From contig CAILLO010000047.1 in the NCBI GenBank assembly GCA_903835065.1, forward strand, positions 1 through 64,000: a DNA stretch of 64,000 nt, in the 5' to 3' direction. Below the pieces are notes generated by a model. It worked only from the letters and a program-made list of their open reading frames with translations. It ran no database searches and had not been told where the DNA came from. The stretch comes from an uncultured Eubacteriales bacterium. GTDB lineage: Bacteria; Bacillota; Clostridia; Saccharofermentanales; UBA5734. Each line of letters opens with the position of its first letter. The first letter of the stretch is position 1. Below, piece after piece: positions 12,529 through 20,956 of the stretch. Made by a program: the position numbers and the translations under genes.

Positions 12529-12564
12529 GGAGCCTCCGGGTCCCTCGAGGGACCCGGAGGCTCC
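12529..12564 (+). terminator. Hairpin terminator after tRNA-Gln, possibly bidirectional
   Basis: A perfect 16-bp stem (12529-12544 with 12549-12564) and TCGA tetraloop. There is no T-run on the plus strand (TGTCG), but the minus strand reads TTTGG after it, so it may mainly serve the convergent HTH gene. Confidence 0.65.
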
Positions 12565-14526: not shown

Positions 14527-14581
14527 GACGCTGAACGAAATTCTTGCATATCAAAGTATTTCCGACGAGGGCGCTTCAGAA

Positions 14582-15046
14582 ATGGATGACCAGAAAAGCC
14601 ACGTCAACGACCTGCTGCTCGAGATTTTCGAGAACATCCTCGTGACCGAGCAGAAGGCCCTCCGCAGGGGCAGCTTCAGCGACCTTTCGATCGCGGAGAT
14701 GCACACGCTCGAGGGGATCGGCCTCTACGACGCCCACACGATGAGCGAGACGGCGGCCCGACTGGAGATCACGACGGGCACGCTGACGGTCGCGGTGGAC
14801 AAACTCGTGCGGAAGGGCTACGTCGAGCGGCTGAGGGACGAAGCGGACCGCCGCATCGTGCGCGTGAAACTGACCCGCAAGGGCAAGCTCGCCTATCGTC
14901 TTCACACGAAGTTCCACACGCTCCTGGTGGAGAGACTTCTGCTGCCGCTCGACGAGACCGGGAAGAAGACGCTGATCCGGACGCTCGAGACGATCGACGG
15001 CTTCGTGCGGGAGCAATACCGCCGCTACAACATCACAGAGGACTGA
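14582..15046 (+). CDS. MarR family transcriptional regulator
   Basis: 154 aa winged-helix regulator: SIAEMHTLEGIGLYD, then MSETAARLEITTGTLTVAVD (recognition helix region) and the wing LRDEADRRIVRVKLTRKG. An ATG at 14525 is in frame but overlaps the predicted -10. ATG 14582 places the start immediately before the dimerisation helix (KSHVNDLLLEIFENI) and gives the usual length, so I prefer it. It heads an operon with ACP and a long-chain acyl-CoA synthetase, the same setting as FabT-type MarR regulators of fatty-acid synthesis genes. A role in lipid gene control is therefore likely but inferred. Confidence 0.85.
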   Translation: MDDQKSHVNDLLLEIFENILVTEQKALRRGSFSDLSIAEMHTLEGIGLYDAHTMSETAARLEITTGTLTVAVDKLVRKGYVERLRDEADRRIVRVKLTRKGKLAYRLHTKFHTLLVERLLLPLDETGKKTLIRTLETIDGFVREQYRRYNITED

Positions 15047-15098: not shown

Positions 15099-15359
15099 AT
15101 GCCCGAACCGACCCGCTCCGAGGTCCTGAACGAAATCTCCGCTTCGATCGCGCGCCTCTCCAACCTGCCGGAATCCGAGATCACCGAAGGGCAACTCCTG
15201 GTCGTCGACCTGAAGCTCGACTCCCTCGCGATCTACGAACTCGTCGTCGACCTCGAGGAACGATTCGGCATGCAGATCTCCAACGAGGATGCCGAGGGCC
15301 TCGAGACCGTCGGAGAAGCCGTCGATTATGTCCTGATGAGGCTCTCGGCCGCGCAGTAG
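15099..15359 (+). CDS. Acyl carrier protein
   Basis: 86 aa acidic protein with the phosphopantetheine site Ser in KLDSLAIYELV (Ser about residue 42) and the four-helix ACP pattern, including DLEERFGMQISNEDAE. The site reads LDSLA rather than the FabD-type ADSLD, so this may be a specialised carrier and not the housekeeping AcpP. It lies between the MarR gene and a long-chain acyl-CoA synthetase, suggesting it accepts or supplies acyl chains for that pair. Strong CAGGAGGA ribosome binding site. Confidence 0.9.
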   Translation: MPEPTRSEVLNEISASIARLSNLPESEITEGQLLVVDLKLDSLAIYELVVDLEERFGMQISNEDAEGLETVGEAVDYVLMRLSAAQ

Positions 15360-15410: not shown

Positions 15411-17234
15411 ATGCAGATCGTCAAGTCCAGAGAATATTTTCCCGTCCGCTCCTATCGCGACCTTCGCGAAATGCTGCACCAGAGTGTCGAGCTCTTCCCG
15501 GGAGAACCCGCCTTCCGCTTCCGCACCTCGATCGACGCTCCCCTCCAGACGCGGACCTACCTCGAGTTCCAGGGCGAAGTGGATGCCCTCGGCACCGCCC
15601 TCGCGTCCCTCGGTCTCGCCGGCCGGCGCGTCGCCGTGATCGGGGAGAACTGCTACGAGTGGTGCCTCGCCCACGTCGCGGTCACGAACGGCCTCGGCGT
15701 CTCCGTTCCGCTCGACCGCCTGCTGCCCGATACCGAGATCCTGAGCCTTCTCGAGCGCGGCGAGGCGTCGGCGGTCGTGTACGCCCCGGCGTTCCACAAG
15801 GTCATGAAGTCCGCCGCCGGCCGCCTTCCCCGTATCGAGCACTTCATCTGCATGAACGCCTCGAAGGCCGAGCCCGATGCGGACGACGCGCGCTTCCTCG
15901 ACCTGCCCGCTCTGCTCGACCGGGGCGCCGCGCTCCTCGGGACCGGCGACCGCGCGTATCTCGACGCGCCGATCGACCCCGACGCGATGGTCTCGCTGCT
16001 GTTCACGTCCGGCACGACGAGCGCCTCGAAGGCCGTCATGCTCTGCCACCGGAACTTCGTCGCCGACATCCGCGGGATCTGCTCGATGCTCGAGCTGCGG
16101 CCCGGCCATCGCCTCCTGTCCGTCCTTCCGCTCCACCACACGTTCGAGAACACGTGCGGGCTGCTGACGTCGCTCGGCATCGGCGGCTGCGTCTACGAGT
16201 GCGACGGGCTCCGCTACATCCAGAAGAACCTGCAGGAGTTCGGAATCAGCCTCCTGATCGGCGTGCCGGTCCTCTTCGAGAACTTCTACGCGAAGGTCCA
16301 GGACACGTTGAAGAAGACCGGAAAGACCAGGACCGTGAAAATCGCGATCCGCGTCTCGAACGTCCTCCGCTTCTTCGGCATCGACCTGCGCCGCAAGCTC
16401 TTCAAGCAGATCCACGAAGGGTTCGGAGGCCGGCTCACGATCGGAATCTGCGGCGCGGCGCCGATCGACCCGGCGATCATCCGCTTCTTCGCGGATGTGG
16501 GCTTCCTGATCTACCAGGGTTACGGCCTCACGGAGACCGCGCCCGTCGTGACCGGCTGCAACTCCCGCATCTTCCGGCCCGGTTCGGTCGGCCAACCCGT
16601 CGGCGGCGTCGACATAGCGATCGACACGGACATCCGGGGCGGGACGGGGGAAATCCTCGTCCGCGGCCCGATCGTCATGCTCGGCTACTACGGCGACGAG
16701 CAGGCGACCGCGGACGCCCTGCACGACGGCTGGTTCCGCACCGGCGACATCGGGCACGTCGACTCGAAGGACCGGCTGTTCGTGACGGGCCGGCTCAAGT
16801 CGATGATCGTGCTCCCGAACGGGAAGAAGGTCTTCCCCGAGGAGGTCGAGCAGCTGATCGACGGCGTCTCCGCCTTCGTCAAGGAGTCCCTGGTCTGGGG
16901 CGCGAAGCGCAAGGACGGCGAAGTCGACATCTGCGCGCGGTTCGTGCTCGACAAGGACAAGCTGCTCGAGACGCTCGGCGGCAAGCTCGACGAGTTCGAG
17001 ATCCGCAAGACGCTCGAGCGCCTGGTCAAGGAGATCAACGCACGCATGCCGTCGTTCAAGTCCGTCCGCTACTTCGTCTTCGGATTCGACGAGATGATCA
17101 AGACCACCACGCTCAAGATCAAGCGGTCGGTCGAGATCGCCCGCGTCCAGGCCGCGCTCGACGCGGCCGCGCTTCCGATCCGGGAGTTCGCGGGCCGGAA
17201 CATCGACCCGCTGCTTGCTCCCGCCACAGCCTGA
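15411..17234 (+). CDS. Long-chain fatty acid-CoA/ACP ligase (AMP-forming), paralogue 1
   Basis: 607 aa ANL enzyme of the FadD15/long-chain type. Motifs: SLLFTSGTTSASKAVMLCHR (P-loop), the LPLHHTFENT stretch, YQGYGLTETAPVV (A5), WFRTGDIGHVDSKDRLFVTG and the C-terminal lysine context KTTTLKIKR. The P-loop reads SGTTSASK rather than the common SGTTGxPK; paralogue 2 shares this deviation. It activates fatty acids as acyl-AMP and transfers them to CoA or, given the neighbouring ACP gene, possibly to ACP. Paralogue 2 at 19136-20956 shares the first five residues and the same layout throughout, suggesting a local duplication around dagK and plsC. Confidence 0.9.
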   Translation: MQIVKSREYFPVRSYRDLREMLHQSVELFPGEPAFRFRTSIDAPLQTRTYLEFQGEVDALGTALASLGLAGRRVAVIGENCYEWCLAHVAVTNGLGVSVPLDRLLPDTEILSLLERGEASAVVYAPAFHKVMKSAAGRLPRIEHFICMNASKAEPDADDARFLDLPALLDRGAALLGTGDRAYLDAPIDPDAMVSLLFTSGTTSASKAVMLCHRNFVADIRGICSMLELRPGHRLLSVLPLHHTFENTCGLLTSLGIGGCVYECDGLRYIQKNLQEFGISLLIGVPVLFENFYAKVQDTLKKTGKTRTVKIAIRVSNVLRFFGIDLRRKLFKQIHEGFGGRLTIGICGAAPIDPAIIRFFADVGFLIYQGYGLTETAPVVTGCNSRIFRPGSVGQPVGGVDIAIDTDIRGGTGEILVRGPIVMLGYYGDEQATADALHDGWFRTGDIGHVDSKDRLFVTGRLKSMIVLPNGKKVFPEEVEQLIDGVSAFVKESLVWGAKRKDGEVDICARFVLDKDKLLETLGGKLDEFEIRKTLERLVKEINARMPSFKSVRYFVFGFDEMIKTTTLKIKRSVEIARVQAALDAAALPIREFAGRNIDPLLAPATA

Positions 17235-17289: not shown

Positions 17290-18228
17290 ATGGCGAACGA
17301 GACGGCCCCGACGCTCTACCGCTTCATCATCAACCCCACTGCCGGCAAGCACCGGTCCGACCTCACCGAACTCGCGATCGAGAAGCGCTTCGCGACCCTC
17401 GGCGCGCATCGGTATGAGATCCACCGCACGGAGCGGCCGGGTCACGCGACCGAGATCGCGCGCGCGATCGGGGAACGGGACGGGTCGTCCGCCGTGATCT
17501 TCGCCTGCGGGGGAGACGGTACGGTCAACGAGGTCGTGAACGGCCTCGCCGGGACCGGCGCCGTGCTCGGCGTGCTGCCCTGCGGCACCGGCAACGACTT
17601 CGTCCGCACGGTCTACGGGATGCGCGACCCGGTCGCGATCCTCGACAGGCTCGGCTCCGAGTCGTACCGGTCCGTCGACGCGGCCCGCTTCAACGACCGT
17701 CTCTTCGTGAACGTGGCCTCCCTCGGCTTCGACACGATCGTCGGCCTCAAGGCCAAGGCGATGGTCGCCAAGGCCCCCTGGATCGGCGGCGTCTCGTATC
17801 TGTTCGCCGCGATCGCCGGACTGTCCGGCAAGCACCATTTCCCGATGGAGCTCGACCTCGAGGTGCAGTCGAAGGACGGCGCGACGGAGCGGGTGCTCCG
17901 CAAGGAGTCCTTCACGCTGATGGCCGTCTGCAACGGCGCCTATTATGGCGGCGGCTTCCACCCGGCCCCGGAGGCCGACGCCTCCGACGGACTGCTCGAC
18001 CTGTGCGTCGTGCGCAAGCTCGGGGTCTTCCGGATCCTGGCGCTGATTCCGAAATACGCCGGCGGCACCCACATGGGGAACCCGGCCGTGTCGATGTACA
18101 AGGTCCGCAAGGGGACGATCCGCAGGGTCGACGAGCCGCTCGCGGTCAACTGCGACGGCGAGAGCTCGTACGAGGATTCGATCGGATTCGAAGTGCTGCC
18201 CGGGGCGATCCGTCTCGCGGTGTTCTGA
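17290..18228 (+). CDS. Diacylglycerol kinase / YegS-like lipid kinase
   Basis: 312 aa DAGK_cat family. Seen: FIINPTAGKH at the N-terminus, the nucleotide loop ACGGDGTVNEVVNGL, LPCGTGNDFVR and the C-terminal PEADASDGLLDLCVV with VNCDGE. The family phosphorylates diacylglycerol or related lipids (DgkB in Bacillus recycles DAG to phosphatidate). It sits among acyl-activating and acyltransferase genes, so a role in phospholipid turnover is likely; the exact substrate is not set by sequence. It is 56 nt behind ligase 1 with an AGAGAGGT ribosome binding site and converges on plsC. Confidence 0.9.
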   Translation: MANETAPTLYRFIINPTAGKHRSDLTELAIEKRFATLGAHRYEIHRTERPGHATEIARAIGERDGSSAVIFACGGDGTVNEVVNGLAGTGAVLGVLPCGTGNDFVRTVYGMRDPVAILDRLGSESYRSVDAARFNDRLFVNVASLGFDTIVGLKAKAMVAKAPWIGGVSYLFAAIAGLSGKHHFPMELDLEVQSKDGATERVLRKESFTLMAVCNGAYYGGGFHPAPEADASDGLLDLCVVRKLGVFRILALIPKYAGGTHMGNPAVSMYKVRKGTIRRVDEPLAVNCDGESSYEDSIGFEVLPGAIRLAVF

Positions 18229-18249: not shown

Positions 18250-18987
18250 TCAGGCCGTCGCGTACAGCGTGCTGCGCCGGCGCATCTCGCGCATCCAGGC
18301 GGCGAGGCTGTCGGTCATCTGCTTCGCGTCCTTGTAGTCGCAGGGCAGGAGCGGCTTGCCGAAGGTGATCCGCAGGCTCATGCGGCGCAGGCGCTTCCAG
18401 TCGAAGGACTTCGGCCACTTCATGTGGCGGTTGAAGATCCGGTAGCCCCCCTCGAGGAAGACCGGGACGAGCGGCGCGCCGCTCTTGATCGAGAGATAGG
18501 CGGCTCCGTCCATGAGCGGACCCAGTTCTCCGTCGGAGGTGCGGGTCCCTTCCGGATGCACCAGGACGATCTCGCCCTTCTCCAACTGCTGCTTCGCGAG
18601 GATCAGCGCCCGGACGGGATTTCCGAGGCGGTCGATGGCGATGCCGCGGCCGACGCGGAGCATCAGCTGTCCGAAGACGCCGTGGGAGCTGATCAGCTCC
18701 TGGGCGGCGAGGCTGCACATCTTCTTGAACTGGCCGGGACGAAGGTAGGACGCGACCCACATCCCGTCGACGTAGGTCTCGTGGTTCGGGCACAGGACGA
18801 AGGGCGGCGTCTCGGGAATATTCTCCAGGCCGGTCGCCTTCATGTCGAGCAGCAGCCGGGAGGCGCCGACGGCGAAGCCGAAGGCCGCGTTCCCCAGCAG
18901 TCCGCGCTGGACGGGATATTTGGAGAACATGCCGGTCTCCGGCTTCTTGAACATCACTCCCCTTGGAGTGGCGCTGGACAGTTTCAT
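18250..18987 (-). CDS. plsC: 1-acyl-sn-glycerol-3-phosphate acyltransferase
   Basis: 245 aa from this start. PlsC/LPLAT motif I is NHETYVDGM (HX4D), motif II includes GRGIAIDR and motif III is HPEGTRTSDGE. It acylates lysophosphatidate to phosphatidate at the membrane. Three in-frame ATGs exist: 19038 lies at or before the predicted transcription start, 18954 has a G-rich sequence only 2 nt away, and 18987 has GGAGGA 16 nt upstream. None is ideal and 18987 is a compromise. It is transcribed divergently from acyl-CoA ligase 2 through overlapping promoters and converges on the diacylglycerol kinase gene. Confidence 0.88.
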   Translation of the reverse strand: MKLSSATPRGVMFKKPETGMFSKYPVQRGLLGNAAFGFAVGASRLLLDMKATGLENIPETPPFVLCPNHETYVDGMWVASYLRPGQFKKMCSLAAQELISSHGVFGQLMLRVGRGIAIDRLGNPVRALILAKQQLEKGEIVLVHPEGTRTSDGELGPLMDGAAYLSIKSGAPLVPVFLEGGYRIFNRHMKWPKSFDWKRLRRMSLRITFGKPLLPCDYKDAKQMTDSLAAWMREMRRRSTLYATA

Positions 18988-19024
18988 TCTCGGCAAAATG
19001 GGGTCCTCCGCGTTTTCAGGATTC

Positions 19025-19072
19025 TTGCAGGATACCATACGCGATGGTAGAATGCGATTGTTCGATTCTCAA
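19025..19072. promoter_or_regulatory. Overlapping divergent promoters of ligase 2 (+) and plsC (-)
   Basis: Plus strand: TTGCAG (19025-19030), 17 bp, TAGAAT (19048-19053). Minus strand: TTGAGA (19072-19067), 17 bp, TACCAT (19049-19044). The two -10 elements overlap by two bases, so the promoters probably compete. Confidence 0.7.
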
Positions 19073-19078
19073 ACAATC
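19056..19078. promoter_or_regulatory. Dyad, candidate operator for the divergent lipid promoters
   Basis: GATTGTT (19056-19062) and AACAATC (19072-19078) form a perfect 7-bp inverted repeat with a 9-bp centre. It covers the predicted +1 of ligase 2 and most of the -35 of plsC. GATTCTC also occurs twice nearby (19064-19070 and 19080-19086). The nearby MarR regulator is the obvious candidate binder. Confidence 0.55.
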
Positions 19079-19135
19079 TGATTCTCCAATCAAATTCGAT
19101 GGAATGCCGCGCGAAATCGCACAGGAGGATGGAAG

Positions 19136-20956
19136 ATGCAGATCGTCAAGGGCAAGCGCTATCTACAGGGCCGACACTTCTCCACCCTGATCGAGATGCT
19201 CCGCCAGTCCGTCGGACTCTGGGGCGACACGAACGCCTACATGTTCCGCCGCACGCCGGACGGACCCGTCGAGACCCGCACCTACCGGCAGTTCCTCGCG
19301 GACGTCGAGTCGCTCGGTACCGGTCTGCTCGGTCTCGGCCTCGCCGGGAATCGGGTCGCCGTGATCGGCGAGAACCGCTACGAGTGGGCCGTCTCCCACA
19401 CCGCCGTGGTCAACGGCGTCGGCGTGTCCGTCCCGCTCGACAAGGCGCTTCCCGAGAACGAGGTCGCGACCCTGCTCGTCCGCGGCGACGCCGAGGCCGT
19501 GCTGTACGCTCCCAACTTCCACGAGATGATGGTCCGCGTCGCGCAGAAGAACCAGCGGATCCGCCATTTCCTGTGCATGGACGGCGCGGCGGTCGAGAGC
19601 CGCCTGCCCGCGGGCGATGCCCGCTTCCTGTCCTACCAGGCCGTGATCGGCGCCGGCGCTGCGGCGCTCGCCGCGGGCGACCGCGGGTACGTCGACGCGA
19701 AGATCGATCCGGCCGCCATGTGCGCGCTGCTCTTCACGTCGGGCACGACCGCGATGTCCAAGGGCGTCATGCAGAGCCAGACCAACGTCTGCAGCAACAT
19801 CTACAGCGTCTCCGGCGTCATCGAGATCTACCCCGGCGAGCGCGGGCTGTCCGTGCTGCCGCTGCACCACACCTTCGAGAACACGGTCGGCATGTACATG
19901 TTCCTGTACTACGGCGCCTGCATCTGCTTCACGGACGGCCTCCGCTACTTCGCGAAGAACCTCTCTGAGTGGAAGATCAACCTGCTGCTCGCCGTGCCGC
20001 TGCTGTACGAGAACATCTACCACAAGCTGATGGACGGCATCCAGAAATCCGGCAAGGAGAAACTCGTCGGCGCGATGCGCAAGGCCACCCGCTTCCTGCG
20101 CGTCTTCGGCATCGACATCCGCCGCAAGGTCTTCCACCAGGTCCTCGAGGGACTCGGCGGCAGCATGCGCCTCTGCGTCAGCGGCGCCGCCCCGATCGAC
20201 CCGCGCATCATCCGCGCGCTCGACGATTTCGGCATCCTCTTCCTGCAGGGATACGGCCTGACCGAGACGTCACCGGTCGCCACGGCCTGCAACGAGCGGG
20301 TCAACATCCTCGGCAGCATCGGCAACCCCGTGTCCGAGGTGGAGGTCGCGGTCGACACCGACAGCGACGAGCCCGGGGCGGTCGGCGAGATCCTCGTCCG
20401 CGGCCCGAACGTCATGCTCGGCTACTACGAGAACCCCGAGGCCTCCGCCGAGGTCCTGATGCCCGACGGCTGGCTGCGCACCGGCGACATGGGCCATTTC
20501 GACAAGCACGGCTGCATCTACGTGACCGGCCGCATCAAATCGATGATCGTCATGGCGAACGGGAAGAAGGCCTTCCCCGAGGAAATCGAGACCCTGCTCA
20601 ACAGGATCCCGGGCGTGCGCGAATCGCTCGCATGGGGCGAGAAGGAACCTTCCGGCGGCGTCGACATCTGCACCAAGCTCGTCGTCGACCCTGAGCTGCT
20701 GGCCGCCGCGGCCGGCACCGCCAATGCCAAGGCCCAGATCGACTGGCTGTGGACGCAGGTCCGCGGCGTCAACGCCCAGATGCCCGCCTACCGCGCGGTC
20801 AAGTACATGCTGGTCGCCACGAAGGACCTCGTGAAGACCACCACCCTCAAGATCAAGCGTCCCGCCGAGGCCGAACTCATGAAGAAGCTGCTCGAGACCC
20901 ACGGCGTCGCGGTCCGGGCCCTGTCCGGAAAGAACATCGACGCGCTGCTGCCTTGA
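19136..20956 (+). CDS. Long-chain fatty acid-CoA/ACP ligase (AMP-forming), paralogue 2
   Basis: 606 aa, close paralogue of the ligase at 15411-17234. Motifs: ALLFTSGTTAMSKGVMQSQT, LPLHHTFENTVGMY, LQGYGLTETSPVAT, WLRTGDMGHFDKHGCIYVTG and the C-terminal KTTTLKIKRPAE with catalytic Lys. Reaction as for paralogue 1; chain-length or acceptor preference may differ. A CAGGAGGA ribosome binding site precedes the ATG. Unlike paralogue 1 it has its own promoter with a dyad at the start site and no ACP partner, so the two copies are probably expressed under different conditions. Confidence 0.9.
   Translation: MQIVKGKRYLQGRHFSTLIEMLRQSVGLWGDTNAYMFRRTPDGPVETRTYRQFLADVESLGTGLLGLGLAGNRVAVIGENRYEWAVSHTAVVNGVGVSVPLDKALPENEVATLLVRGDAEAVLYAPNFHEMMVRVAQKNQRIRHFLCMDGAAVESRLPAGDARFLSYQAVIGAGAAALAAGDRGYVDAKIDPAAMCALLFTSGTTAMSKGVMQSQTNVCSNIYSVSGVIEIYPGERGLSVLPLHHTFENTVGMYMFLYYGACICFTDGLRYFAKNLSEWKINLLLAVPLLYENIYHKLMDGIQKSGKEKLVGAMRKATRFLRVFGIDIRRKVFHQVLEGLGGSMRLCVSGAAPIDPRIIRALDDFGILFLQGYGLTETSPVATACNERVNILGSIGNPVSEVEVAVDTDSDEPGAVGEILVRGPNVMLGYYENPEASAEVLMPDGWLRTGDMGHFDKHGCIYVTGRIKSMIVMANGKKAFPEEIETLLNRIPGVRESLAWGEKEPSGGVDICTKLVVDPELLAAAAGTANAKAQIDWLWTQVRGVNAQMPAYRAVKYMLVATKDLVKTTTLKIKRPAEAELMKKLLETHGVAVRALSGKNIDALLP

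Follow-up and report, generated by a model that had tools for sequence, protein, structure and literature searches.

Among described regulators of bacterial lipid genes, FapR senses malonyl-CoA, and FadR of the gammaproteobacteria, a GntR-family protein that acyl-CoA releases from DNA, responds to acyl groups and controls fadD, which encodes a fatty-acid ligase. Characterised FabT proteins are repressors of fatty-acid synthesis genes that bind more tightly to their operators with acyl-ACP, and in the cited work FabT is described for streptococci, enterococci and lactococci. In S. pyogenes, ANTTTGATTATCAAATT served as the FabT probe (PMC10138225), and the sequence given for S. pneumoniae FabT is ANTTTGACTGTNAAATT (PMC8406281).

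Analysis of a 64-kb stretch of DNA (64,000 nucleotides, here the window) from an uncultured clostridial bacterium provided well-supported indications of a FabT operator before a fatty-acid ligase gene, that is, of a variant of this system outside the Lactobacillales with an acyl ligase as its target. We consider it highly probable, for the account as a whole, that a dyad between the divergent genes for this ligase (ligase 2) and a PlsC-like acyltransferase serves the ligase-2 promoter as its main FabT operator, that repression there would be tuned by acyl-ACP, and that any influence on plsC would be a neighbour effect. The genes of the locus are as follows.

14582..15046, plus strand: fabT, a MarR-family regulator of 154 aa (NCBIfam NF050133 FabT and PDB 6jbx)
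15099..15359, plus strand: acyl carrier protein-like gene behind fabT, 86 aa with a DSL motif (Pfam PP-binding, E 1e-9; gene order conserved in the family)
15411..17234, plus strand: ligase 1, an AMP-binding acyl ligase (Pfam AMP-binding)
17290..18228, plus strand: YegS/DagK-type lipid kinase (TIGR00147, 137 bits, above cut-off; DAGK_cat)
18250..18996, minus strand: plsC-like acyltransferase (Pfam Acyltransferase, E 7e-20; PDB 5kym PlsC, E 3.6e-13)
19136..20956, plus strand: ligase 2, a predicted AMP-binding fatty-acid ligase (Pfam AMP-binding, E 7.5e-63; FabT box before all family orthologues examined)

The order fabT, ACP-like gene, (ligase 1) and lipid kinase, with plsC convergent, forms a cassette that is conserved in the family; a ligase divergent from plsC was found in some family genomes only. 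Ligase 2 is assigned by family membership as an AMP-binding fatty-acid ligase, with acyl-CoA or acyl-ACP as its putative product. Translation of plsC probably starts at the TTG at 18996 or the ATG at 18987 rather than at the ATG at 19038, because GGAGGA (19009-19004) precedes both and homology begins later, the alignment to most relatives starting at residue 28-42. Elsewhere in the window, a perfect 30-bp palindrome (GCCTCCGGGTCCCTCGAGGGACCCGGAGGC, 12532-12561) is perhaps a terminator.

The initial annotation had proposed the MarR protein encoded at 14582 as the probable regulator of the dyad, and it very probably is. This protein matched the NCBIfam FabT model (NF050133) with 152 bits (E 1.2e-44), far above all other models, and its best PDB match by far was 6jbx (E 3.6e-30; family profile, E 1.2e-38), whose title is 'fatty acid biosynthesis transcriptional regulator'. 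The score does not reach the equivalog cut-off of 200 bits, which is not diagnostic here because a control match in Lactococcus lactis, of a genus with a characterised FabT, also fell below it. We class the protein as a 'FabT homologue with a FabT-type operator'. Among 196 sampled genomes of the class Clostridia, 25 had homologues with E below 1e-25, and FabT itself is therefore not new to this class; the new part is the cassette and the ligase target.

The dyad had been annotated as GATTGTT and AACAATC separated by nine nucleotides, with GATTCTC repeated next to it. Both descriptions were exact: the arms of the dyad lie at 19056-19062 and 19072-19078, and GATTCTC at 19064-19070 recurs 16 bp on at 19080-19086, where it forms part of a weaker box (19072-19094). 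The inner bases of the dyad pair as well, giving the full element GATTGTTyGAnnnTCAAACAATC, and its core at 19061-19073 (TTCGATTCTCAAA) has one mismatch to the FabT consensus TTTGANNNTCAAA. A search for further dyads across the 2.51-Mb genome, which had also been suggested, found the exact sequence once, at 19056-19078 alone, and with three mismatches allowed it returned the dyad itself and chance matches, which indicated that conservation does not extend to the outer arms. In the 97-bp gap between plsC and ligase 2, a box with no more than one mismatch has a chance probability of ~0.009 (first-order shuffle), and a chance origin is untenable because relatives conserve the box.

A looser 13-mer pattern gave many chance matches across the AT-rich genomes of the family, and for this reason promoter-anchored tests were used. 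In addition, a 23-bp position-weight model was trained on 26 boxes that precede ligase 2, fabT and fabH/fabD in relatives, with the window's own genome and the sole other genome of its genus held out. In the 64-kb window, this model ranked a site that ends 21 bp before the fabT ATG first and the dyad second (24.1 bits), followed by a site exactly 16 bp from the dyad; the next non-overlapping site scored 0.9 bits.

14538..14560, plus strand: FabT box before fabT, AAATTCTTGCATATCAAAGTATT (24.3 bits, held-out model)
19056..19078, no strand assigned: putative FabT operator 1, the dyad (core TTCGATTCTCAAA; over the predicted +1, ~19060, of ligase 2)
19072..19094, no strand assigned: putative FabT operator 2, weaker (core TCTGATTCTCCAA at 19077-19089; 10.7 bits)

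That a model trained on other genomes placed the dyad and the site upstream of fabT as the best two of the window agrees with the assignment of the regulator, and autoregulation of fabT through the box at 14538-14560 is probable; seven relatives have perfect boxes at -50 to -57 before fabT. Very probably, then, the dyad would be the docking site of FabT, encoded 4.5 kb away. We also considered that another lipid regulator, of the MarR or TetR type, might read the TTTGA palindrome by coincidence. Three more weak MarR matches occur in the genome, and binding by FabT is itself deduced from sequence, but the FabT homologue is the neighbour and FabT proteins elsewhere read TTTGANNNTCAAA, the same box stands before fabT's own gene, and boxes and fabT co-occur in fabT-fabH operons of other Clostridia. 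A coincidental site for such a regulator thus appears most improbable.

A further question was which of the two divergent genes the box belongs to. The dyad had been expected upstream of orthologues if it were functional, and a homologue search found the box before all 15 of the family ligase-2 orthologues that have upstream sequence, 31-113 bp before the ATG (11 perfect, three with one mismatch and one, in genome G001, with two); beyond these 15, the ligase 2 of genome G003 has a one-mismatch box at -141. The idea of a regulatory site thus withstood this comparison. Outside the genus, all 13 of the genomes considered had a box of no more than one mismatch within 120 bp, compared with 0.23 on average and 3 at most in shuffles. 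A quick protein tree placed the family ligase-2 proteins in one clade. Most of the boxed ligase-2 orthologues are not beside plsC. No box with fewer than two mismatches was found in the 300 bp upstream of ligase 1 or of the other ligases, and ligase 1 was without a box of its own over this distance in four genomes. Where plsC lies beside ligase 2, it has a box with no more than one mismatch, or with two in the case of G001; elsewhere, plsC has one in genome G020 alone (TTTGTCAATCAAA at -55), where plsC may still adjoin ligase 2 because the contig ends soon after. Since the box tracks ligase 2 and is near-absent from plsC elsewhere, we assign the element to ligase 2.

The promoter elements in the gap are closely interleaved.

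19025-19030 (TTGCAG, spacing 17) or 19024-19029 (CTTGCA, spacing 18), plus strand: alternative -35-like elements of ligase 2 (from the sequence)
19045..19053, plus strand: extended -10 of ligase 2, TGG-TAGAAT (TGn-TAnnnT precedes the box in 16/16 ligase-2 promoters)
19044..19072, minus strand: possible plsC promoter, TTGAGA-17-TACCAT (consensus scan; overlaps the ligase 2 -10 and the box)

Two overlapping -10 elements had been annotated, and both hexamers do exist, TAGAAT at 19048-19053 on the plus strand and TACCAT at 19049-19044 on the minus strand, with a two-base overlap. The extended -10 motif lies 7-11 nt ahead of the box in all 16 ligase-2 promoters, which places the box over the predicted +1 of ligase 2, and this would be the position of a repressor. 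For plsC, a scan of a 2-kb region gave TTGAGA-17-TACCAT a score of 9/12, a level at which 0.3 sites would be expected there. Its TACCAT is the complement of the ligase 2 extended -10, which carries TGn in front of the -10, and because TGnTAnnnT is equally present in ligase-2 promoters that do not adjoin plsC, this hexamer is no evidence for a plsC promoter. The ligase-2 promoter is conserved, and the plsC promoter appears to draw no support of its own from conservation. The annotation had also placed the dyad over the +1 of one gene and the -35 of the other; the predicted +1 of ligase 2 is covered, and the -35 of plsC is a possible one.

Relatives that bear names are uncultured Clostridia akin to Saccharofermentans and Mageeibacillus. 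More distant relatives also have divergent plsC/ligase loci, and in 26 of 44 of these a perfect box lies between the genes. In most such loci (L177-L227), the ligase promoter is of the type TAGACG-17-TATCAT, with a weak but conserved -35 that begins 15-19 nt behind the box, and the box centre is nearly fixed at ~-59 relative to the ligase start, an activator-like place. The best plsC -35 in the same loci lies 17 to 84 nt from the box. Here too, therefore, the box appears to keep step with the ligase. Two of these loci (L209 and L211) have the fabT box directly after TAGAAT.

These comparisons bear on the proposal, made with the initial annotation, that a single regulator chooses between overlapping divergent promoters and so arbitrates between fatty-acid activation (ligase 2) and phosphatidate synthesis (plsC). 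The overlap of the -10 hexamers and the ~100 bp between the divergent genes speak for it, as do the retention of the divergent pair with a box between in G001, G003 and G007 and the frequency of the boxed pair in the more distant relatives. However, the box stays with ligase 2 when plsC is elsewhere, plsC lacks a box when ligase 2 is elsewhere, and the box of the distant genomes stands at a constant 16-18 nt from the ligase -35 and at variable distance from that of plsC. In addition, the plsC -10 is explained as the complement of the ligase extended -10, and both promoters would be expected to be shut together because a dimer over the ligase 2 +1 also covers the possible plsC -35. We consequently regard a choice between the promoters as very unlikely and do not retain it. 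Joint shut-off could instead be the purpose of the site, with FabT lowering ligase 2 and plsC together so that acyl activation and use are controlled as a unit. Although the box and the possible plsC -35 overlap in this genome, and the box lies between both genes in G001, G003 and G007 as well, the arrangement is not conserved where the genes lie apart and the plsC promoter is unproven; a dedicated coordination of the two genes is accordingly possible but rather unlikely. The preferred reading is an operator of ligase 2 with, at most, an effect on its neighbour.

The weaker box 16 bp from the dyad is part of a wider pattern. Around the ligase 2 and fabT boxes, consensus matches peaked at offsets +16 and -16 (z 6.7 and 5.7; next 3.3), and 37 perfect boxes from other loci, a few of them shared, gave the same top offsets (z 5.2 and 5.9). 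These z values are somewhat inflated, as flanks were shuffled base by base and related promoters treated as independent, an inflation that does not single out offset 16. In other Clostridia, the second box of fabT-fabH loci often fits the consensus perfectly or nearly so (L255, L258 and L259), with L258 and L259 each having two perfect boxes in 16-bp tandem. A literature search returned nothing relevant on FabT operators in Clostridia or on tandem FabT boxes, and such reports may still exist. The 16-bp double box could be relevant to reports that FabT binds its operators weakly. We speculate, with considerable doubt, that tandem 16-bp dimers are the basic operator and that FabT works in two directions according to position, repressing from +1 (fabT and family ligase 2) and perhaps activating from ~59 bp upstream.

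Other boxes in the genome suggested a putative regulon. Perfect boxes were found between fabD and fabH-fabG (C8:9428) and before a FabK-like gene (C18:41897). A one-mismatch box (TTTGATTATCAAG; C66:4852, or L117:4852) is found 4 nt past a TATAAT and shortly before a gene for an acyl-CoA dehydrogenase, and another lies beside FabV (C5:5793; FabV model, 602 bits). The latter, the box-like TTTGATATGCAAA (L119:5793), is situated between FabV and a flavodoxin-like gene, and a near-duplicate of this region (L121:4828, on C21) has TTTGCAAATCAAA beside a similar gene. Boxes also occur near genes for an M28 peptidase (C16) and a BMP-type lipoprotein (C35), which have no evident link to this pathway, and these may be chance. 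The box pattern had 13 matches in this genome compared with 4 for a reversed-pattern control, an approximately threefold excess which means that some of the other boxes are due to chance.

PlsX (PF02504) was not found in any of the 23 family genomes, including this one, with control genomes positive; PlsY was identified in 13 of the 23, this genome included. Approximately 2.4 kb from plsY, on contig C11, a gene (L247:556-2355) encodes a Dak2 - FakA-middle - DegV fusion, a single polypeptide that unites fatty acid kinases A and B.

Based on these data, we infer that a FabT dimer encoded 4.5 kb upstream binds the dyad box, with a second dimer possibly on the weaker box 16 bp downstream. As the sites cover the predicted start point of ligase 2, bound FabT would block initiation. 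By analogy with characterised FabT proteins, long-chain acyl-ACP would tighten this binding, and when acyl-ACP is plentiful fabH/fabD, the FabK- and FabV-type reductases, fabT and ligase 2 would be turned down. The plsC gene may be co-repressed because the box overlaps its possible -35; this would be an effect on a neighbour, and relatives do not conserve it. If the product of ligase 2 is acyl-ACP, this product would load FabT and shut off both the ligase and the synthesis genes, closing a direct feedback loop. A lipid feedback loop known from streptococci and enterococci thus seems to operate here on an unusual target.

The FabT regulon of the Lactobacillales (Streptococcus, Enterococcus and Lactococcus) resembles this system in having a MarR-family FabT that reads the box TTTGANNNTCAAA, and in having boxes near the start point and before fabT, fab genes and enoyl-ACP reductase genes. 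Here, however, fabT heads a lipid cassette (ACP-like gene, ligase 1, lipid kinase and convergent plsC), whereas that of the Lactobacillales belongs to a fab operon. The AMP-forming ligase is a conserved target in our genomes, unlike the E. faecalis regulon, in which plsX, acpB and fakAB lie outside FabT control (PMC13046290); genes of fatty-acid activation are not part of that regulon. The second box that recurs here at 16 bp may be a further difference, and the family differs from the Lactobacillales FabT systems in that no PlsX was found in it. The fabT-fabH operons of other Clostridia share the FabT homologue, the same box and the 16-bp tandem, but have fabT directly before fabH. FapR of Bacillus, Listeria and Staphylococcus is alike in being one repressor over fatty-acid and phospholipid genes (PMC5052256) and unlike FabT in its protein family and operator. 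FadR is similar to the FabT proposed here in controlling a fatty-acid ligase gene, and differs in belonging to the GntR family. Conservation points to FabT regulation within an order of uncultured Clostridia, in a family in which no PlsX was detected, with the activator of free fatty acids as its steady target.
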